DNA of 64,000 nucleotides, taken from the NCBI GenBank assembly GCA_016212295.1, contig JACRGO010000237.1, forward strand, positions 1 to 64,000. The letters run 5' to 3'. The stretch comes from Nitrospinota bacterium (lineage in GTDB: Bacteria > Nitrospinota > Nitrospinia > JACRGO01). Under the pieces are notes generated by a model. That model saw only the letters and a program-made list of their open reading frames with translations. It ran no database searches and was not told the origin of the DNA. Numbering within the stretch: position 1 is the first letter of the stretch; each line of letters starts with the position of its first letter. The translations under genes were made by a program, and so were the position numbers. Positions 24,953-51,671 of the stretch are shown piece by piece.

Positions 24953-25791
24953 GGGACTTGGAATTTAACAATAAACCAGGACACGAAGAGAAAAGATTCA
25001 TTTCTTTCCGCGAGGAGTGATTCCCTGTAGTCATTAAGTTTTCCTTCGTGATCTTTGCGCCTTTGTGTGAGACCATATTTTTAATGGGTCTTATTCGTGT
25101 GTTTCGTGAATTTCGTGTTTAAGGATTTTAAATATCTGGGGTATGCACTTAACTTGAGTAGGTGCCATATATTGTGGGTGACGATGAAAAATATCGGACT
25201 TTATCCGAACTCTGATTTTCATGGGCGTAAAGCGCATTTTAAACCCCTCAAAGCAGCAACTGGTTGTTTTTTTCTGCGAAACCCAAGAATAAAGCATGTA
25301 AATTTAAAAAAAATTCAATGAAACCTGCGTGGAAGCTTTAGAATAAGAAACACCACATATTGTGTTTACTCAAATCAAGTGCATACCCCAGTTAAATATT
25401 TTGAAATGAAATAACTTTTTCTCTCGTTCCCAGGACTCGCTATGATAAAAGGCTTTGGACGGAAGTTTTTCAAAGATCTAAAATGTTGCGAATTTTTGTA
25501 TTTTACCTTCCCTGGTTCTCAATAACTTGACGACCTGAACTTATCGCCCTTCTGCGGGCTTTAAAGAATTGAGCAGCGAACATCCTACCAATATCGTTCA
25601 AGCCCTGTAAAGGCGATACAATGAAGGGCAGAGAGCTTTCCCCTTTATATGGCATATTAGTATTTAGAAAAATATAATGATAATAAGCAGATATGCCAAT
25701 AATCATTCGTGGGTATTTGCGTGTATTGACCAAACCAAAACTTTGTGCTAGCATTTTCTAACTGTCTAATAACTTGGAGGAGAGTACTCAC
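24953..25791. other. Gene-poor gap with repeats
   Basis: This 839-bp gap contains a ctttgcgcctttgtgtgaga repeat (about 25050), tttcgtgaatttcgtg repeats, and the inverted-repeat element at 25130-25401. An 83-codon minus-strand ORF (25503-25754) has no ribosome site and no recognisable domain, so I do not call it. GC is lower than in the surrounding backbone. Confidence 0.4.
25130..25401. mobile_element. MITE-like element with about 48-bp terminal inverted repeats
   Basis: The left arm (25130-25177, aaatatctggggtatgcact...) and right arm (25353-25401, ...agtgcataccccagttaaat) are inverted with about 80% identity, including the 13-bp core ctggggtatgcac. The 175-bp interior has no transposase. 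The structure suggests a non-autonomous transposon or a decayed insertion sequence. Confidence 0.6.
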
Positions 25792-26414
25792 ATGTCCAAG
25801 AAAGATATTCGCAAGTTTTGCGATAATTACAAGAGGCTTGAAAATAACGGGACATATCGATGGAAGATTCTCGACGAGACGCTACTTGGAATATGTGACG
25901 CATACCCTTCCCATACGTCTGCTGACGAAGTCTTTTCTAAGGTCGCCCTCATAAATCGCAGCTATCGCGCTAACCTACACTTCACAGGTAAAGATACTGA
26001 GGAAAAAATTGCGAAGGCATTTGTGAAAAAGGGCCTCGACAAAGTGCTTGCCCCCTAAATAGCATAACTGCATTAACAGCCGAAAGCCTGCCCACGTTGG
26101 TAAGAGCACATGGCAGTGTTGTCAGTATTGTGAAAGATGTCACAAGTCGGATTCACAACTCCTTCGCATCAAAGTATCTTCACTTTCATTTTCCGCGCGT
26201 CGTTCCCATATTTGATAAATTCGCTTACAATGAATCATGGCGACTGGCTCCAGTGCCGAAAAACGAGTGGCAAAGGTGGAGCAATTTAATAAACTATAAT
26301 TACGGAACTCATTGTACATCTGTAGTCGCCTTACTCACTGAGCTAAAGGCTAATGGGGTCAATTCGCCGAACATCAAATTGATAGATATACTGCTCTATG
26401 AAGGGATTGGCTAA
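25792..26414 (+). pseudogene. Unknown protein split by a single-base frameshift
   Basis: The 5' part (25792-26058, MSKKDIRKFCDNYKRLENNG onward) stops at a TAA directly after a run of five C at 26051-26055. One extra C would join it in frame to the 3' part, which reads LNSITALTAESLPTLVRAHG and continues with KYLHFHFPRVVPIFDKFA. The joined protein would be about 207 residues. GGAGGAG lies 9 bases before the ATG. The stop (26412-26414) sits within the R'' half of an attC-like site, as in integron cassettes. I do not recognise the family. It is either decayed or a sequencing error. Confidence 0.6.
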
Positions 26415-26487
26415 CCAGTTGACCCTTCGGTTCCTCCGCACTGTTTCGCTTCGTCGCCGAAGGTGGCTTGCGAACCAGGCGTTAGAA
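26409..26487 (+). other. attC-like recombination site 1
   Basis: GGCTAAC (26409-26415) and GTTAGAA (26481-26487) approximate the R'' and R' boxes, with CTAAC/GTTAG complementary. Inside, ccttcgg and ccgaagg pair to extend the stem. The upstream gene's stop codon overlaps R''. A second strong hairpin (26491-26542, ggccgcc...ggcggc) follows before the next gene and may be the remains of another attC. Confidence 0.55.
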
Positions 26488-26574
26488 ACAGGCCGCCAGC
26501 CGGGCTGTCAAGCCTGCGGCTTGACGCCCGCTTGTCGGCGGCTCAACGCCGCATTAAGTGTTTTGGAGCCGTCA

Positions 26575-27483
26575 ATGAATCAAGTTATTTTTGTTATGGA
26601 CGAATCGGGGGCAAAGGGCTACTCCGACAACATTGAAAGCACGCCAGGTGAGCTTGGTGTAATGGCTGGCTATCTCATTCCAATCGACTGTTTGAGTTTG
26701 GTTAAAAGTGAGTTAGATGCAATTCGATCAAATTTTTTTTCAGAAGGAAAAATTCACATTACAGACTTGCTCCCGCAGCAGGAAGAATTACGAAAAAACA
26801 TATTTGATTACTTCCTCCAAAGGAAAATATATTGGGTTTACGAAGCCGCCTATGTCCAAGGTTATTTTGAAAATGCCGATTTTCTTAATCAGCTAAACAA
26901 GAAAGCCCATGACTCAAGACGATCAAATATACAAGTGTCATGGAAGGAAACAAAAGAGCTTCTTCATTCCGAGCTATTTCAAGGAGCCTTCGGGAAGGCT
27001 TTAGCATTTTGCCTAGATTACGTAGGTAGACCATTCGAGCTCAGAGTCATTACCGACCGAACGGATAACTCAATCATTAAAAAATTTCAGAGCGAAGCCG
27101 ACGCCCTCCTATCTGTGGGAAAAGAAAAAATCCACGAAACTACGGGCTTCAATAAAAAAACGAAGCAGATTGTAAGGGGAAGCATTGCAACAAAGGTTTC
27201 TGCTGACACAGATGCAATCGGAGATTTTTCTGGCATTACATATTCCATTGCTTGCGAAGACTCTTCTCTTACCCTTGCCGCCGATGTGCTAGTAAACAGC
27301 GCCCATTATCACCTTAAATTACTGCAATCAGAGAGTACTGGAGTTGCTCTCAATGTTGCATCCTCAATCTCTAATCACCAACTGAGTAGCTTGGTGTACG
27401 GGGCATGGGACAATACGGAAGGAAATTATTTTGCTGATGCCATATTTATGCACCCCACGCAAAAGAGCAGAGACAACACCTAA
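26575..27483 (+). CDS. DUF3800-like protein (cassette gene)
   Basis: A 302-residue protein. It opens VIFVMDESGAKG, the IDESG-type start of DUF3800 proteins, which have an RNase H-like fold. An acidic residue at KIHITDL and a C-terminal LTLAADVLVNSAHYHL are in the places expected for the family. I chose the ATG at 26575 because GGAG lies 6 bases upstream; the longer frame from 26398 reads through the attC-like site. The stop TAA overlaps the R'' box of attC site 2. DUF3800 proteins are often found in defence or mobile contexts; the biochemical role is unknown. Confidence 0.7.
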   Translation: MNQVIFVMDESGAKGYSDNIESTPGELGVMAGYLIPIDCLSLVKSELDAIRSNFFSEGKIHITDLLPQQEELRKNIFDYFLQRKIYWVYEAAYVQGYFENADFLNQLNKKAHDSRRSNIQVSWKETKELLHSELFQGAFGKALAFCLDYVGRPFELRVITDRTDNSIIKKFQSEADALLSVGKEKIHETTGFNKKTKQIVRGSIATKVSADTDAIGDFSGITYSIACEDSSLTLAADVLVNSAHYHLKLLQSESTGVALNVASSISNHQLSSLVYGAWDNTEGNYFADAIFMHPTQKSRDNT

Positions 27484-27540
27484 CCTTACATTCAAGAGGG
27501 ACAGGCCAGAAGCGGCCTGCCCCTCAATTTAACGTTAGGC
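27478..27540 (+). other. attC recombination site 2 (textbook form)
   Basis: ACCTAAC (27478-27484) matches RYYYAAC and GTTAGGC (27534-27540) matches GTTRRRY exactly. The 63-bp site folds through gagggacaggcc / ggcctgcccctc with a small terminal loop. The stop codon of the DUF3800-like gene lies inside R''. This is the strongest integron cassette site in the window. Confidence 0.85.
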
Positions 27541-27592
27541 ATACGCTCTACCTATGGTACGAAGCGCGCTATAATTGCTTCATTAGTTTTGA

Positions 27593-27931
27593 ATGGAGTC
27601 AGATCATGAACACACAACTCTTATACATAAGGACGATATTCCTACATATTCTTTTGGGTCCTTCATTGCACGCGGCGGCGACATCTTGGACGGCTGGAAT
27701 CTCCTTCTCAGAGACGGCCCCAAGAAGGTTCACGGCGGGCTTGTCATTGTTCAAAGCGATACGCCGCATTTCATTCTTGACCTCCTCGTAGGCATCCACG
27801 CTGCAAACGACTCACAGCAGACTGGGTCGGATTCATCGTTCAACGCCGTGAAAGCAGTGACGAGCCAGGGGCCACCGGCCCTCTCCGCGTCGACCCTTAG
27901 GAAAAAGAGGTGGCTACAGTTTTGGAAATAA
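27593..27931 (+). CDS. Hypothetical cassette protein
   Basis: A 112-residue protein of unknown family (MESDHEHTTLIHKDDIPTY, ... GGLVIVQSDTPHFILDLLVG). It starts 53 bp after the attC2 R' box, as expected for a cassette gene. A TATAAT at about 27570 could give it its own promoter. Competing frames exist: a plus-strand ORF from 27606 and a minus-strand ORF 27599-27799. Codon composition favours this one. Confidence 0.45.
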   Translation: MESDHEHTTLIHKDDIPTYSFGSFIARGGDILDGWNLLLRDGPKKVHGGLVIVQSDTPHFILDLLVGIHAANDSQQTGSDSSFNAVKAVTSQGPPALSASTLRKKRWLQFWK

Positions 27932-28063
27932 CCATGCCGGGCGCAATGGCATGCGGTCAAATGACGGAATGGTAAAGGGGTCAGAGGTTTGCAAGATCAC
28001 ATTATTTTGCCTCGTTGCCGAAACGCACACAATGTGTTAATCTCTTAATTTTGGAGGAGAGAA

Positions 28064-28342
28064 ATGAAAGCTAAATTAACTAAAGAAGAACAAGAAATAT
28101 TGGGCAGTTTTGAAAAAGGAGAGTGGGTCCCGGTCAAGGACCTTTCAAAAAGAAAAGCCGAGCTAATGAGGTATGCAAGAAACACGTTAAAAAAAGACAA
28201 AAGACTAAACATAAGAATTTCCGAAAGAGACTTGACTGAATTGCGGAAAAAGGCGGTAAGCGAGGGATTGCCTTATCAGACATATGTTTCCAGTATAATT
28301 CATAAATTTGTCAGCGGCAGGCTGGTAGAGGCAAAAAATTAA
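28064..28342 (+). CDS. CopG-family antitoxin without adjacent toxin
   Basis: A 92-residue protein of the CopG-type antitoxin family: TKEEQEILGSFEKGEW, RLNIRISERDLTELRKKA as the ribbon-helix-helix, and the C-terminal YQTYVSSIIHKFVSGRLVE. A strong GGAGGAG lies 4 bases before the ATG. Such antitoxins normally follow a BrnT- or RelE-like toxin gene, but the 130 bp upstream hold none. It is followed 14 bp later by an attC-like site and may be an orphan cassette that acts as an anti-toxin or anti-addiction gene. Confidence 0.8.
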   Translation: MKAKLTKEEQEILGSFEKGEWVPVKDLSKRKAELMRYARNTLKKDKRLNIRISERDLTELRKKAVSEGLPYQTYVSSIIHKFVSGRLVEAKN

Positions 28343-28356
28343 ACCGCCAACAAATC

Positions 28357-28405
28357 GCTCAACACCGGTGCCCATTACGCTCCGCTTCATTCGCACGGGT
28401 TAGCC
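28357..28405 (+). other. attC-like site 3 (short)
   Basis: GCTCAAC (28357-28363) fits RYYYAAC exactly. GTTAGCC (28399-28405) is close to GTTRRRY. AACACCGGTGC and GCACGGGTT form an imperfect stem. At 49 bp it is shorter than most attC sites, so confidence is moderate. Confidence 0.4.
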
Positions 28406-28458
28406 AATCAGTTATTTTCTGCCGCCCACTTTGGGGCTTAAATCTTTTTATTCCAGTT

Positions 28459-28478
28459 CCGGGGGCTGACGCCCCCGG
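28459..28478. repeat. GC-rich hairpin
   Basis: An 8-bp perfect stem, ccgggggc / gcccccgg, with a tgac loop. It lies between the cassette region and the hicA end. It resembles short dispersed palindromes in other genomes and could also act as a weak transcription block. Confidence 0.55.
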
Positions 28479-28554
28479 CTATACGCTTTCGGCCCTCCGG
28501 GCCTAAAAAACATGCTGGAACAGCCTCACTGACTTATGGGTCAATAGGCATTTT

Positions 28555-28770
28555 CTAAACAAGTCTTTTTAAATCTTCAATAGAAAGATCAATTTTTTTT
28601 AGGATATTGTGCAGTGTCCCTTTTTTAAGCTCCTTATGGTTTGGGACCACAACCGAGATATTTTTTTCGAGGTTGTGAAGAAAAATATGGCTTCCTCTTT
28701 GGTGGTCCACCGTGTACCCTATTCTGTGTAGAGCTTTAACCACTTGCCTCCCGGAAAAGGTTTTGCTCAA
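28555..28770 (-). CDS. hicA: HicA-family mRNA interferase toxin
   Basis: A 71-residue HicA toxin with a double-stranded-RNA-binding-like fold. The motif [10 protein letters not shown] carries the catalytic histidine, and [17 protein letters not shown] is typical of the C-terminal part. It cleaves mRNA and is neutralised by HicB. It overlaps hicB by 4 bases with the antitoxin first, a common coupling in this type II module. Confidence 0.92.
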
Positions 28771-28982
28771 ATCGTTACCTCGATTTCGCTGACGCTGACT
28801 CCCGGCCTTGTTTTTATTTCATTAAGCTTTTCAAGTCCCTCAAGATAACACAATATTGCTTCCTTGGCATTTTCAAGCGCCTGCTCAGTGGTTTCACCTT
28901 GGGTAAAGCATCCATCAAGGGCAGGAACCGAAACCGTAAAACCTCCTTCGACTGCGCTTTCCAAAACAACGCTGAATTTCAT
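28767..28982 (-). CDS. hicB: HicB-family antitoxin
   Basis: A 71-residue antitoxin with the partial RNase H-like HicB fold: [20 protein letters not shown] then [20 protein letters not shown]. It has no separate DNA-binding domain, so autoregulation would have to act through the complex. I chose the ATG at 28982 because the upstream alternative (29006) encodes the AGGAGG ribosome site itself. Confidence 0.9.
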
Positions 28983-29164
28983 CCGGCAAACCCTCCTTTT
29001 TCCCATTTCGTTTTTGCATTCGTGAAAATATTATTCCCAATTTCAGGGAAAGTCAATAGGAAATTTGCGGTAACACTTTAGCTGTTACTCTCGCTCCCAG
29101 TGTCCTCCCTGGGAGCGTCCGAGCTAAGATGCTTTTCACCTCAACTTTTTAAAAAATTATAATC

Positions 29165-45382: not shown

Positions 45383-45681
45383 GGAGCAAGCTTCGTAATC
45401 CTCAGCCGGTTCTCCTTCTCTTTCCTCGATGGCTTTCAGGTCGGATAAATATTCAAAAGTCCGTTGGGCCTAAAAACTTTGAAAATGAGCTGAAATAATT
45501 AAATCCTAAATTATGCGGATTCGGCATAATGGTAAAACAGATTATGTTACATGGAAAATCATGGCGGACTTTAATGAATAAATGATTAACAAGCCTTGAA
45601 AGCAATAGAAGTGTTTCTGAATAAATAAACAAAGAGTATGCATAAAAATAAATGTTCGCGCCGCCATTAGGCTTAAAGAAT

Positions 45682-46320: not shown

Positions 46321-46419
46321 GCCTAACAACCGCCTCCACGGCAGACGCTTGACTGTCATGCGCCTTGCAAAGTTCCGCAAGCCTTACGCCAGCCTGCGCT
46401 TGTGAGGCGAGCGTTAGAT
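46321..46419 (+). other. attC recombination site 4
   Basis: GCCTAAC (46321-46327) fits RYYYAAC and GTTAGAT (46413-46419) fits GTTRRRY exactly. cgcctc (46331) pairs with gaggcg (46404) in the stem. At 99 bp it is within the normal size range. A second R''-type box 57 bp upstream (46264-46270) overlaps the preceding gene's stop, as if two attC sites had been fused. Confidence 0.75.
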
Positions 46420-46432
46420 TTCAAGGATGCCA

Positions 46433-47281
46433 ATGGCTATTCACTGGTCAGAATCCGAAGTCGAGGCAGCAGTTGAAGACTACTTCAACATGCTCCGCCA
46501 GGAGTTGACCGGTCGCAAATACAACAAGACCGAGCATCGCCGGGCATTAATGGAACATCTGAACAATCGGTCAGAAGGTTCGGTTGAACTGAAGCATCAA
46601 AATATCAGCGCCGTTCTGATCGAGATGGGTATTCCATACATTGACGGATACAAGCCACGTTCAAACTACCAGCGCACACTACTGCCCGCAGCGGTGTCTG
46701 ATTTCCTCGCCAATCACCCCGAGTTTCACGCGCTGTTCCAAGAGGACTCCGAGGTCGCGCCATCCATCCCATCGGTTGCGGATTTTCTCGCGGCGATGGA
46801 AGCTCCGCCAAGGCCGGAAAACAAGGGCAGCTCAACGATCGCGGAGACTCAAGCTATCTACAATCCCGCCGGTGTGAACTACCTGGAACGGGAGGCGCAA
46901 AATCATTCACTAGGAGACGCCGGGGAACAATTCGTCATCAATTTTGAGCGGGCCAGGTTAATCCACGCCGGGAAGGAATACCTCGCGGATCAAATTGAGC
47001 AAATATCAGTCTCGGTCGGCCCTTCCGCTGGGTTTGATATCCGGTCGTTTGAAGAAAACGGAACAGACCGCTTTATCGAGGCAAAAACCACGAAATACGG
47101 CAAGAGCACGCCATTCTTCGTTACTCCCAACGAGTTGGATTTCTCACGGGAGAATGCAACCCGGTACTTTCTATACCGTGTCTTCAAGTTCCGCGCGGAA
47201 CCACGCTTGTTCACTTTGCATGGCTACTTGCAGGATCAGTGCATACTCCAGCCGTCGCAGTACTTGGCGAAGCCAGCGTGA
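46433..47281 (+). CDS. DUF3883 (nuclease-fold) domain protein
   Basis: A 282-residue protein. The N-terminal half (WSESEVEAAVEDYFNMLRQE) is of unknown function. The C-terminal half matches DUF3883: HSLGDAGEQFVINFERARLI, AGFDIRSFEENGTDRFIEAK and STPFFVTPNELDFS. The D...ExK pattern (GFDI, FIEAK) fits a PD-(D/E)XK-like nuclease fold often found in defence loci. The ATG at 46433 has AAGG 6 bases upstream; an ATG at 46427 is also possible. It begins 14 bp after the attC4 R' box, as expected of a cassette. No attC is seen after its stop. Confidence 0.75.
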   Translation: MAIHWSESEVEAAVEDYFNMLRQELTGRKYNKTEHRRALMEHLNNRSEGSVELKHQNISAVLIEMGIPYIDGYKPRSNYQRTLLPAAVSDFLANHPEFHALFQEDSEVAPSIPSVADFLAAMEAPPRPENKGSSTIAETQAIYNPAGVNYLEREAQNHSLGDAGEQFVINFERARLIHAGKEYLADQIEQISVSVGPSAGFDIRSFEENGTDRFIEAKTTKYGKSTPFFVTPNELDFSRENATRYFLYRVFKFRAEPRLFTLHGYLQDQCILQPSQYLAKPA

Positions 47282-47379
47282 AATCTGGCAATGCGTTGCA
47301 ACTGGCGTATTGACACGATTTGATCTTTTTTATAACATGAAGGCGAAAATATATCCCCCCTGCTTCTTCGGAAGCAGGG

Positions 47380-47928
47380 CGCGAGGCCGGGGATGCCGAT
47401 TTCGATACCCTCATCGCCTGCGCCTTCAACTATGACGCCCATTCCTCGGAATTCGATAAACTGGGCCGGATTCCGGTGCTCAAGGCCAGGATGAACGCCG
47501 ACCTGCACATGGCAGGCGACCTCAAGAACACCGGCAAGGGGAACCTTTTCGTCATCTTCGGAGAGCCGGACATTGACATCCTCGACGCCGGGGACGGGCA
47601 GGTGCGGGTGAAGATCAACGGCGTGGATGTCTTTCATCCCAACACCGGAGAGATTCGCAGCGACGGCGCGGAGGGGATCGCCTGCTGGTTCATCGACACC
47701 GATTATAACGAAGAGAGCTTCTTTGTCCGCCACGCCTATTTTCTCGGGGCCAACGATCCCTACAAGTCCCTCAAAACCACCCTCAAGGCCGAGATCAACG
47801 AAGAAGCCTGGGGTACCCTGAACAGCGACACCTCCCGCCCCTTCCGGAAACCAAAATCCGGTCGGATCGCGGTAAAGGTGATCAATCATCTGGGGGATGA
47901 GGTGATGAAGGTGTTTCGTCTGAAATGA
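47380..47928 (+). pseudogene. C-terminal fragment of a DNA methyltransferase (type III Mod-like)
   Basis: The frame reads EAGDADFDTLIACAFNYDAH from about 47380 and continues to VKVINHLGDEVMKVFRLK at 47928, including NTGKGNLFVIFGEPDIDIL and DTDYNEESFFVRHAYFLG. From memory this resembles the C-terminus of site-specific adenine methyltransferases in type III-like restriction loci. The catalytic DPPY and SAM motifs are missing, and an in-frame stop lies just upstream. It is a 5'-truncated remnant. The internal ATG at 47476 gives a 150-residue ORF that is unlikely to be functional. Confidence 0.65.
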
Positions 47929-47979
47929 TAGAATTTTGTATTTTAGAACATTGAAAGAGTGTTCACGGGAGTGTCTGCC

Positions 47980-49155
47980 ATGCGCCTGACTATCGAACAG
48001 CTCCAAAGCATTATGAACTCCACGGAAGGGGAGCATTTCGAATTCAAGGAAGCCAAAACCAAATTTCATTTTGAGAAGCTCCTTAAATATTGTGCTGCTT
48101 TAGCGAATGAGGGTGGTGGGGAAATGGTTCTCGGCGTTACCGACAAACGGCCAAGACATGTGGTTGGAACTCAGGTGTTTTCTCAACCGGAACGGACGAG
48201 AAGCGGGCTTATTGAAAAGCTGCGTTTAAATATCAATTTTGATGAAGTCCAGCATCAAAATGGGCGCGTCCTGATTTTTCACGTTCCCTCTCGCCCCGTC
48301 GGAATGCCGATCAAGGCGGAAGGCGTTTACTGGGAACGAAAAGCCGACAGCTTGGTTCCTATGTCTGAAAATCGGCTTCGTGAAATCTTCTCCGAGGCAG
48401 GGCATGACTTTTCAGCCCAGATATGTTCAGGCGCAACAATAGCTGATTTGATCCCGGCGGCCATTGAAGATTTCCGGAACCGGTGGCTTATCAAGTCAAA
48501 CAATCCCGGTTTATCCACGTTGAGCCATGAACAGCTTCTTTCCGACGCCGAAGCGGTTGTTGATGGTTATCTTACCTATGCCGCGTTGATCTTGTTCGGA
48601 ACAAAACAAGCTCTGGGCAAGTGTTTAGCCCAATCCGAGGTGGTTTTTGAATATCGGTCTTCCGATGCCTCAGGTCCAGCCCAGCATCGAGAAGAATTTA
48701 GAGAAGGGTTTTTCAGTTATTATGAAAAATTATGGAAGTTGATTAATTTGCGTAATGATATCCAGCACTTTCAGTCAGGTTTATTCCTGCTGGATATCCC
48801 GACTTTTTCGGAACGGCCAGTTCGAGAAGCTGTCTTAAACGCCGTCAGCCACCGGGATTATCAGCTCGGAGGCAGCATCTTTATTCGCCAATATCCAAGG
48901 AAGTTGGTGTTTGAGAATCCAGGCGGATTTCCGGTTGGCATAAATCTCGATAATATCCTTGATCGCCAGTCGCCGCGCAATCGCCGCATCGCGGATATTT
49001 TTGCAAAATGTGGTCTTGTGGAGCGTTCCGGTCAAGGCATGAACCTGATGTTTGAGCGAAGCATTCAGGAAAGCAAAGCAATACCTGATTTTTCCGGCAC
49101 TGATCAGTACCAAGTGATATTGAAAATCGCCTTCAACCTCGATTACAGACACTAG
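47980..49155 (+). CDS. AlbA_2 / HATPase-type ATP-binding protein, C-terminally shortened
   Basis: 391 residues. The N-terminal AlbA_2 (Schlafen-type) domain has EGEHFEFKEAKTKFHFEKLL and LANEGGGEMVLGVTDK. The C-terminal HATPase_c_4 part has REAVLNAVSHRDYQ, FENPGGFP and CGLVERSGQGMNLMFE. These proteins often lie next to methyltransferase and helicase genes in restriction-type loci. The frame ends after FNLDYRH. The family's next segment and winged-helix end appear in another frame (49155-49472), so there has been an internal deletion plus frameshift. GGGAG lies 8 bases before the ATG at 47980. Confidence 0.75.
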   Translation: MRLTIEQLQSIMNSTEGEHFEFKEAKTKFHFEKLLKYCAALANEGGGEMVLGVTDKRPRHVVGTQVFSQPERTRSGLIEKLRLNINFDEVQHQNGRVLIFHVPSRPVGMPIKAEGVYWERKADSLVPMSENRLREIFSEAGHDFSAQICSGATIADLIPAAIEDFRNRWLIKSNNPGLSTLSHEQLLSDAEAVVDGYLTYAALILFGTKQALGKCLAQSEVVFEYRSSDASGPAQHREEFREGFFSYYEKLWKLINLRNDIQHFQSGLFLLDIPTFSERPVREAVLNAVSHRDYQLGGSIFIRQYPRKLVFENPGGFPVGINLDNILDRQSPRNRRIADIFAKCGLVERSGQGMNLMFERSIQESKAIPDFSGTDQYQVILKIAFNLDYRH

Positions 49156-49472
49156 TGTCAAAAGGCGTCATCGAGCGCTTTGGCCGTGGGCGCGGTGTTA
49201 AATACATTCTCAGCCGTCAATATTATCAGATGGTAGGGAGTAGGGGTGTATATACGAGAAAGAAGGGATTGGATCGTGAAACAAACAAGACCTTACTTTT
49301 GAAACATATCGTTGAAAATTCCGAAACCGGAAGCCGCCTCAAGGAACTGAGACAAGTGCTTCCTTCGTTATCAATGCCACAAGTGCAAACCCTGCTTAGA
49401 GAACTTAAATTAGAAAGAAAAATTCATAAAACTGGAGCTACACGAGCGGCTCTTTGGCATGCCAATCTTTAA
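49155..49472 (+). pseudogene. Detached C-terminal winged-helix part of the AlbA/HATPase gene
   Basis: 105 codons: GVIERFGRGRGVKYILSRQY, GVYTRKKGLDRETNKTLLLK and LKELRQVLPSLSMPQVQTLL. This is the usual C-terminal part of AlbA_2/HATPase proteins, a winged-helix region after a 'GVIER.GRGRG' linker. It is one base out of step with the upstream gene and lacks the segment that should join them. It could be translated separately, but a decayed single gene is more likely. Confidence 0.6.
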
Positions 49473-49598
49473 TAAATCTATTGCATCAGCAAAAAAATCT
49501 AATTGCAATCCAAATGCAATATAATACCCCAAGGTCTTTAATTACAAATAGTTAATATATATCGCTATTTAATTTGATATATAAAATTATGCAATAAA

Positions 49599-51671
49599 AT
49601 GGAATTTCGAATAGCCGATACCTTTACCGACAGCCTTTCCAAACTTAACGGAGAGGAACAGAAGGCCGTCAAGACCACCGCCTTCGACCTCCAGATGAAT
49701 CCAGCCAATCCGGGGATGCAGTTTCATAAACTGGACAGGGCCAAGGACGCCAATTTCTGGTCAGTCCGTGTGAGCCGGGACATCCGATTAATTGTCCACA
49801 AAACAAAATCCAGCCTCCTGCTCTGCTATGTCGGGCACCATGATGACGCCTATCACTGGGCCGAACGGCGAAAACTGGAAACGCACCCGAAGACCGGCGC
49901 CGCGCAGATGGTTGAAGTTAGGGAGACCATAAAAGAAATCACCATCCCCAAATATGTTGAGGTTGAGCAACCCGTACCTTCCAAGCCCTCCCTGTTTTCG
50001 GATGTGTCCGACAATGAACTCCTGAATTACGGTGTGCCGTCCGAGTGGTTGAACGATGTGCGGAAAGCCAATGAGGACAGCCTATTGGAACTGGCCGGCC
50101 ACTTGCCAGGCGAGGCAGCCGAGGCGTTGCTCAATCTGGCCACCGGGGTGACGCCGCAAATCGCACAGCCGGGTTCCACTGAAGTTGATCCCTTTGACCA
50201 TCCCGACGCCAAGCGGCGGTTCCGGGTGATGAACAATGTCGAGGAACTTGAACGTGCCCTGGAATATCCCTGGGAGAAATGGACTGTCTTTCTTCACGCC
50301 GCGCAACAGGAGTATATAGAACAGGATTACACCGGCCCGGCAAGGATTTCCGGTTCCGCTGGCACTGGCAAGACTATTGTGGCCCTCCATCGAGCGGTTT
50401 TTCTTGTCCGTTCCAACCCTGAAGCCAGGGTGTTGCTCACCACATTCTCCGATACCTTGGCGAATGCACTGAGAACAAAATTGAGACGCCTGATCTGCAA
50501 CGAACCGAGTCTGGGCGAACGTCTGGAAGTTTACGCCATGAATCAAATTGGCCTCAGACTCTATGAACTGAATTCTGGACGTCCACGGATCGCATCCCGA
50601 AAAGATATCAAGCAATTTCTTGAAGAAGCCTCCATTCAAATAGAAGGACACAAGTTTACCCTGCATTTCCTGATGACGGAGTGGGAGGAGGTTGTTGACG
50701 CATGGCGGTTGGAAACCTGGAAGGCGTACCGCGATGTTACGCGACTGGGAAGAAAAACGCGTCTGCCGGAGAAACAACGTGCCATGCTCTGGTCTATTTT
50801 TGAACGTGTGAGGTCCAATCTGAAGACCCGGAATCTTGTAACATACTCCGCCTTGTTCAGTCGTCTGACGTCTCAACTGGGTAAAAGCAAGCACCCGCCT
50901 TTTGATTTCGTCGTTGTGGACGAGGCACAAGATGTTAGTGTGGCTCAATTGCGGTTTCTGGCTGCCCTTGGGGCCAGACGAAAGGACAGCCTTTTTTTTA
51001 CCGGAGACCTTGGGCAGAGGATTTTCCAGCAACCCTTCTCCTGGAAGGAACTTGGCATTGATATTCGCTGGCGTTCCCGCACACTGAGAATTAATTACCG
51101 CACCTCACACCAGATCAGAATACAGGCTGATCGGTTGTTGGGACCTGAGTTGTCCGACGTGGACGGCAATGCAGAAGAACGGCGCGGTACAATTTCTGTT
51201 TTCAACGGGCAAAATCCAACTATTATGATTTTAGATAGTCAGAAAGAAGAAATTAAAATGGCCGGCAAATGGATATCGGACCGTATAGGGGAAGGCTTAG
51301 CGCCAAGCGAGATAGGCGTTTTTGTCCGTTCCGAAGCGGAACTGGACAGGGCGCGGACCGCTGTTAAAAAAACGGGCTTGCCCTATAAGGTTCTCGACGA
51401 GAAGGTCGAAACAACCGCCGGAAATATTTCCATCAGTACCATGCACCTTGCCAAGGGCCTGGAGTTCCGCGCCGTTGCTGTGATGGCCTGTGATGATGAG
51501 GTTCTTCCCTTGCAAGAAAGAATCGAATCCGTAGCGGATGATTCCGACCTGGAAGAGGTTTACAACACGGAACGTCATTTGCTTTACGTAGCCTGTACCC
51601 GGGCACGGGACTATCTTCTTGTAACAAGTGTTGATCCGGCATCGGAATTCATTGATGATTTGAAGATGTGA
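49599..51671 (+). CDS. RelE/ParE-like toxin domain fused to a UvrD-type helicase
   Basis: 690 residues. The first 95 residues (FTDSLSKLNGEEQKAVKTTA; MQFHKLDRAKDANFWSVRVS; RLIVHKTKSSLLLCYVGHHD) have the fold pattern of RelE/ParE mRNA-interferase toxins. After a linker comes an SF1 helicase: Walker A GSAGTGKT, Walker B FVVVDEAQD, GDLGQRIF, TLRINYRTSHQI, STMHLAKGLEFRAV and the VACTRARDYL end. It is shorter than full UvrD. No Shine-Dalgarno site precedes the ATG. It lies with AlbA, methyltransferase and DUF3883 genes, so a nucleic-acid-targeting defence role is plausible. Confidence 0.85.
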   Translation: MEFRIADTFTDSLSKLNGEEQKAVKTTAFDLQMNPANPGMQFHKLDRAKDANFWSVRVSRDIRLIVHKTKSSLLLCYVGHHDDAYHWAERRKLETHPKTGAAQMVEVRETIKEITIPKYVEVEQPVPSKPSLFSDVSDNELLNYGVPSEWLNDVRKANEDSLLELAGHLPGEAAEALLNLATGVTPQIAQPGSTEVDPFDHPDAKRRFRVMNNVEELERALEYPWEKWTVFLHAAQQEYIEQDYTGPARISGSAGTGKTIVALHRAVFLVRSNPEARVLLTTFSDTLANALRTKLRRLICNEPSLGERLEVYAMNQIGLRLYELNSGRPRIASRKDIKQFLEEASIQIEGHKFTLHFLMTEWEEVVDAWRLETWKAYRDVTRLGRKTRLPEKQRAMLWSIFERVRSNLKTRNLVTYSALFSRLTSQLGKSKHPPFDFVVVDEAQDVSVAQLRFLAALGARRKDSLFFTGDLGQRIFQQPFSWKELGIDIRWRSRTLRINYRTSHQIRIQADRLLGPELSDVDGNAEERRGTISVFNGQNPTIMILDSQKEEIKMAGKWISDRIGEGLAPSEIGVFVRSEAELDRARTAVKKTGLPYKVLDEKVETTAGNISISTMHLAKGLEFRAVAVMACDDEVLPLQERIESVADDSDLEEVYNTERHLLYVACTRARDYLLVTSVDPASEFIDDLKM

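Follow-up and report, generated by a model that had tools for sequence, protein, structure and literature searches.

The cluster of gene cassettes at 25.66 to 28.42 kb of the window, the 64,000-nucleotide stretch of Nitrospinota DNA analysed here, is very probably the decaying array of a former complete chromosomal integron that lost its integrase gene (intI) and kept its attI site and promoter. The window represents contig C199 of a 3.74-Mb draft genome (237 contigs, 90.5% complete). Chromosomal genes flank the array within a long contig, so that the absence of intI is not a contig-end artefact. A sequence-only reading had described it as a cassette cluster without an integrase (CALIN). Part of that description stands, as the cassettes are consistently oriented and lack an integrase in cis; however, only one of the three attC sites that it named is real, and the label is incomplete for a cluster that retains its own attI and promoter. 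The features of the window are as follows.

25658–25777, plus strand: promoter-attI leader without intI; its homologue in intI-bearing integrons is the spacer that separates intI from the first cassette
25726–25754, plus strand: promoter-like pair TTGACC, 17 bp, TAGCAT, a candidate Pc, with function predicted from sequence
25760–25777, plus strand: attI core AACTGTCTAATAACTTGG, without TT after the G
25792–26414, plus strand: first gene, in two frames (25792–26058 and 26097–26414), probably frameshifted, with no family above the cut-off
26409–26415, plus strand: R''-like box GGCTAAC, which takes in the stop codon of the frame before it
26419–26553, plus strand: truncated gene-less cassette, a repeated structured element with modules B and C, module A lost
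26575–27483, plus strand: DUF3800-like protein of 302 amino acids, with a 26%-identical plasmid homologue
27478–27540, plus strand: attC site, identified by its boxes, bottom-strand fold, and covariance model
27593–27931, plus strand: orphan open reading frame of uncertain status
28064–28342, plus strand: CopG-type antitoxin-like protein (Pfam E = 6e-6, just under the cut-off)
28345–28417, plus strand: half attC, left arm only, marginal by covariance model and fold
45654–45672, plus strand: what is left of a collapsed copy of the gene-less element, heading a second array
46321–46419, plus strand: second, probable attC of 99 bp (24.7 bits; bottom-strand z = −1.8)

The 120-bp leader ahead of the first gene is repeated in the genome (85% on contig C40, 82% on C159, and 93% over 55 bp on C16). 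Homologous leaders are located between intI and the first cassette on contig C182 of the same genome, on contig C52 of genome G008, and on the Nitrospiria contig L096, the last two belonging to other genomes and adjoining relatives of the C182 integrase gene. The promoter-like pair of C182 consists of TTGACC, 17 bp, and TATTAT, and the TTGA of this pair is conserved beside intI genes. The core of the leader, TAATAACTKG, is followed at the intI-bearing loci by TT and the first cassette, whereas the window attI reads TTGG where the intI-adjacent sites have the G^TT junction. The window attI is recognised by its homology to three intI-adjacent attI regions, with a junction that is not intact. The leader had been overlooked in the sequence-only reading, as had the probable attC at 46321–46419.

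A hidden Markov model built from the three intI-adjacent leaders only, with the window copy excluded, matches the window (E = 0.0015, a modest value), G011 (E = 2e-23), C188, C159, C40, and C127, and it has zero matches in reversed decoys. A model of eight leaders, run over 77 genomes of the class, finds copies only in G000, G008, G011, and G015. At least seven integrase-less attI leaders are found in this genome (the window, C40, C159, C127, C16, C188, and C100) and three in two related genomes (contig C136 of G011 and contigs C163 and C175 of G015). The orphan attI sites of G011 and G015 are followed by a cassette and then an attC in the right orientation (31.6, 28.1, and 29.1 bits). A leader match on C33, which lies 39 bp ahead of a gene for alanine dehydrogenase, comprises the promoter only and is left out of the count. 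The orphan attI promoter of C188 (L217, 2600–2900) is split by a palindromic insert of ~150 bp (GAGAGTGCCGAGTTCTC ... GAGAACTCGGCACTCTC). Another palindrome, GGACTAA...TTAGTCC, is found between intI and the promoter in the leaders of G008, G011, G015, and C159, and may serve as an operator or as an arm site for the integrase.

The attC sites were identified with a covariance model built in this analysis (not the published IntegronFinder model) from 31 attC sites located beside or upstream of intI genes in many phyla. The stem pairs of the model covary (0.346, versus 0.128 when shuffled and at most 0.206 when slid), although the 31 sites were picked partly by fold, so that this covariation is not independent proof. 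The site at 27478–27540, previously described as a textbook attC with exact boxes, is confirmed as an attC. Its R'' box ACCTAAC and R' box GTTAGGC match RYYYAAC and GTTRRRY exactly, and its bottom strand folds with −20.0 kcal/mol (shuffled mean, −6.2; z = −7.9; 0 of 200 shuffles as good), with a weaker fold of the top strand (−14.8 kcal/mol). The bottom-strand fold, which the earlier reading had proposed as a check, is a hairpin with three unpaired (extrahelical) bases on the L'' side of the stem, so that both the boxes and the hairpin of an attC are present. The covariance score is 46.3 bits, with E values of 5.9e-8 for the window and 3.4e-6 for the genome, and it falls to 11.3 bits when the site is read in the reverse orientation.

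The same reading had made its claim hinge on similar sites elsewhere in the genome, and these exist: the covariance model finds about 12 sites in the whole genome, on C89, C3, C49, C224, C127, C42, C128, C235, and C199, that is, on at least eight contigs other than that of the window. Neither outcome that the reading had named as refuting its main site was thus obtained. An exact-pattern search of the genome for RYYYAAC...GTTRRRY yields 101 matches, compared to 140 for the reversed control pattern; with exact boxes rarer than in the control, a box match is no proof by itself. A hairpin scan with loose criteria was swamped by chance folds, and a scan with exact boxes and 5-of-7 complementarity missed real attC sites; both were replaced by the covariance model.

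The two remaining sites that had been called attC-like fare poorly. Region 26409–26487 is absent from the matches of the covariance model in the window, its bottom-strand fold barely beats the shuffles (z = −1.3 to −1.8), and repeats place its right part in module B of a gene-less element; as an ordinary attC, it was dropped. It is an R''-like box joined to a truncated gene-less cassette. The third site, 28340–28405, has a fold z of +1.1, and the model match at 28345–28417 (13.8 bits; E = 0.87 in the window search) fits well in its left half and lacks the right one, making it half an attC at best.

The gene-less element recurs on C126, C127 (twice), C159, C182, and C3 and partly on C40 and C50, and these recurrences lie at cassette boundaries. 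The full element, present on C127, is ~170 bp long, starts at G^TT, and ends at A^TT. It contains a 5' palindrome (TTCGCGCCGCC, TTCG, GGCGGCGCGAA) and a stem in which TGCGGCGTTGA pairs with TCAACGCCGCA, with two inner hairpins between them, and it reads as a gene-less cassette. The same architecture with other stem sequences is found in G008 directly behind attI (GGGAGAAC GCGGGGCTGAGCCG ... CGGCTCAGCCCCGC GTTGGGC), and G015 has two further gene-less elements. Searches of plasmid records found no relatives of 26398–26580. A^TT recurrently takes the place of G^TT at cassette junctions: on C127, C126, and C40, at position 26553 of the window, on C136 of G011, and on C175 of G015. The R'' side of the gene-less elements corresponds to this, with AAT at A^TT junctions and AAC at GTT junctions, as if the crossover base covaried. 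Group II intron ends were suspected near the C3 and C128 cassettes; Rfam found none.

The cargo had been listed as an unknown frameshifted gene, a DUF3800-like protein, an orphan protein, and a CopG antitoxin. This list is roughly right, with the CopG match just under the Pfam cut-off and the DUF3800 assignment derived solely from the plasmid homologue with 26% identity. The DUF3800-like protein has no relative in the phage collection. The orphan frame shares ~24 bp, around 27606, with the start of a RelB-like cassette gene of G015. The claim that stop codons overlap the R'' boxes is true of the DUF3800-like gene, with a TAA inside the R'' box (27481–27483), and of the gene preceding the 26409 box, with a TAA inside GGCTAAC (26412–26414), but not of the CopG gene, whose TAA ends immediately ahead of the box. 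In the array as a whole, the attC at 27478–27540 and the DUF3800-like gene are intact; the broken parts are the attI junction, the probably frameshifted first gene, the truncated gene-less element, and the final attC, of which half is present.

Directly behind the array, at 28459–28504, lies an Acido-Lenti-1 RNA (RF01687; 49.3 bits); with 15 matches in the genome, five of them over the family cut-off, it is a repeat in this genome. A HicA/HicB toxin-antitoxin pair is encoded just outside the array on the opposite, minus strand (28555–29006). The second array of the window (45.65–46.43 kb) consists of the collapsed element and the probable attC, and behind it lies a gene with a full-length match to the candidate defence protein PDC-S36. 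This gene belongs to a defence-like run at 46427–51671 that includes PDC-S36/NOV_C, a Schlafen AlbA_2 protein with a RecG-like C terminus, and a UvrD-type helicase.

No match to the integron integrase family (TIGR02249) is found in the window, as the sequence-only reading had stated; its absence does not extend to the genome, which encodes three full-length integron integrases and a broken one. The IntI of C182, the family that goes with the leader, is a protein of 461 amino acids with a full integron-integrase match and conserved catalytic residues and is apparently intact; an integrase of the same family is broken on C50. The C182 IntI (L026, 10127–11512) has ~145 residues ahead of the usual start. 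A similar N-terminal extension is present in the L096 IntI, and contig C451 of G001 matches part of it.

Upstream of the window leader, no IntI remnant was found, and the regions upstream of the orphan leaders show no significant similarity to IntI at the protein level. In DNA alignments, ~29 codons of the intI start are retained ahead of the leader in C188 and ~11 in G011, and the homology of C175 and C163 of G015 stops at the intI start codon. The two attI leader copies of G015 occur in a genome with no detectable intI of the C182 family. The intI starts of C188 and G011 are a direct trace of intI loss; with no remnant in the window, we infer its loss there from these related loci. The left homology edge of the orphan leaders (in G000, G011, and G015) falls in the spacer or at most ~30 codons into intI, and no longer intI remnant (more than ~30 codons) was found beside them. 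Random decay should sometimes leave longer remnants. The pattern may reflect either selection for the removal of the whole intI or movement of the promoter and attI as a unit.

Three copies of the gene-less element have identical modules A and B: that of C182 (located behind an attI that has intI in cis), the first of C127 (orphan attI), and that of C159 (behind an attC). Longer stretches shared by C126, C182, C159, and the first C127 copy are 98.6 to 100% identical in most comparisons, and the flanks of the elements diverge sharply, at G^TT on the left and at A^TT on the right. Cassettes moved by an integrase have this appearance, and the presence of near-identical gene-less cassettes, cut at G^TT and with differing flanks, suggests that the intI-less arrays were fed from elsewhere. 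These data suggest that the C182 IntI might act in trans on the integrase-less arrays, with gene conversion between the element copies as an alternative process that could have produced the near-identity. There are further indications of cassette traffic. C49 and C235 share a cassette with 88% identity, the cassette that comes first next to the C146 integrase has a 99%-identical counterpart in a groundwater deltaproteobacterial draft genome, and an attC of C3 is 98.8% identical to one in Sulfuritalea. The cassette pieces L024 1–141 and L025 12825–12908 are 99% identical to those of the groundwater deltaproteobacterial draft and Sulfuritalea, which points to recent transfer between phyla. Related receiver-domain (response-regulator-like) genes are found as cassettes directly behind attC on C89 and C127 (L196, 164–399, and L048, 8568–8798).

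An accidental combination of inverted repeats with an ordinary promoter would fit the failure of two of the three sites named earlier and the box patterns being no commoner than the control. Such a coincidence is scarcely credible, given an attC with E = 5.9e-8 and strand asymmetry, further attC matches at known integron arrays of the same genome, and a leader that is homologous to intI spacers and has no match among the decoys. The integrases encoded elsewhere in the genome could also have put cassettes into chromosomal attG sites, creating a CALIN without attI. This off-target insertion is one of three origins proposed for CALINs, along with intI loss and rearrangement (PMC8618304), and it could explain leaderless arrays of this genome, such as those at 45.65–46.43 kb and on C49, C42, C224, and C235. 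For the array at 25.66 to 28.42 kb, it is very unlikely: off-target insertion would not carry a homologue of the intI-adjacent promoter and attI, and here the cassettes are not joined straight to non-integron chromosomal sequence but are preceded by the attI leader. This cluster, headed by a promoter-attI leader, is an integron platform without intI, not an off-target insertion.

A different view of the same leader is that the promoter and attI spread without intI, with one integrase serving several platforms, and that the orphan copies do not result from repeated intI loss. It would account for at least seven integrase-less copies versus one intact intI of the family in this genome, for the two copies in G015 with no detectable intI of the family, for the absence of any intI remnant longer than ~30 codons at the orphan left edges, and for the near-identical gene-less cassettes, joined exactly at G^TT, that the orphan arrays have in common with the C182 integrase locus. 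However, the left edges differ among the copies, and neither terminal repeats nor target duplications were recognised, which counts against a dispersed module. Strong selection for complete intI deletion, or weak detection of short intI remnants, could produce the same picture, and gene conversion could homogenise the gene-less elements. Spread of this kind is unlikely to be the source of the window array.

Under the preferred reading, the loss of intI from a complete chromosomal integron, the ancestral order would have been promoter, attI, and cassettes, with intI once located to the left and transcribed away from the array. The intI gene would subsequently have gone from the locus, with the promoter, attI, and cassettes staying in place. 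The retained promoter might still transcribe the first genes, and the attC at 27478–27540, judging from its computed bottom-strand fold, may still be a substrate for an integron integrase. The likeliest enzyme to act in trans would be the C182 integrase, whose own attI is homologous to that of the window. Because the window attI lacks the TT after the G and the neighbouring sites are broken, the window copy may be largely inert. The platform claim (intI lost, attI kept) is well supported by sequence comparison; promoter function, action in trans, and the way in which the leader copies arose are what we infer from the sequences.

CALINs are about as numerous as complete integrons. The window array is not a complete integron, as no integrase gene adjoins it, and it resembles a CALIN in having an attC identified by a covariance model (27478–27540, with the model made here and not that of IntegronFinder) and no integrase in the neighbourhood. 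By default, IntegronFinder 2 requires at least two attC sites for a CALIN (PMC9024848), so that this cluster, with one strong attC, would not be reported as such. CALINs are defined regardless of attI, which is poorly described outside class 1 and is not detected by IntegronFinder (PMC9024848). Like CALINs, which have been proposed to be degraded integrons, the cluster carries attC-bearing cassettes with no integrase nearby; unlike them, it has a recognisable attI and promoter and only one strong attC (PMC9024848). It also resembles the chromosomal integrons of Xanthomonas (PMC12444791), where the integrase of an ancestral integron decays (intI is inactivated or deleted) and the array persists. 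In Xanthomonas, CALINs are found elsewhere in the same chromosomes and the intI platform is at one place, ilvD (PMC12444791), whereas here the attI region occurs at many loci of a single genome, in most cases without intI. The Delta-attI gene cassettes of mobile integrons contain attI-derived sites that have been tested as working recombination sites (PMC12901181). They, too, have attI-derived sequence off its usual place, but those sites lie inside antibiotic resistance cassettes, whereas in the window a whole intI-attI spacer with its promoter heads the array. The complete integrons of the C182 type (C182, C52 of G008, and L096 of Nitrospiria) have a homologous promoter and attI and the same array orientation; in contrast to these, the window copy lacks both intI and the G^TT junction of attI.

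CALINs, intI loss, and the mobilisation of CALIN cassettes in trans have already been described (PMC9024848, PMC8618304, PMC12444791, and PMC9668308); in the open-access literature searched, nothing was found that describes several attI regions without an integrase within a single chromosome, and the attI-derived sites of resistance cassettes come nearest (PMC12901181). The proposed origins of CALINs are usually indistinguishable at a given locus, and a retained attI marks an array as coming from a whole integron platform. A tentative and somewhat unlikely extension is a distributed integron, in which a promoter-attI unit would spread or persist at many chromosomal places without intI, one integrase would act on these in trans, and gene-less cassettes would still be moving. 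If it is true that one integrase serves at least seven attI platforms in one chromosome, surveys that rely on intI and attC would be missing such loci, because they do not look for attI outside class 1, and the assumption that an integrase has a single attI and a single array would fail.
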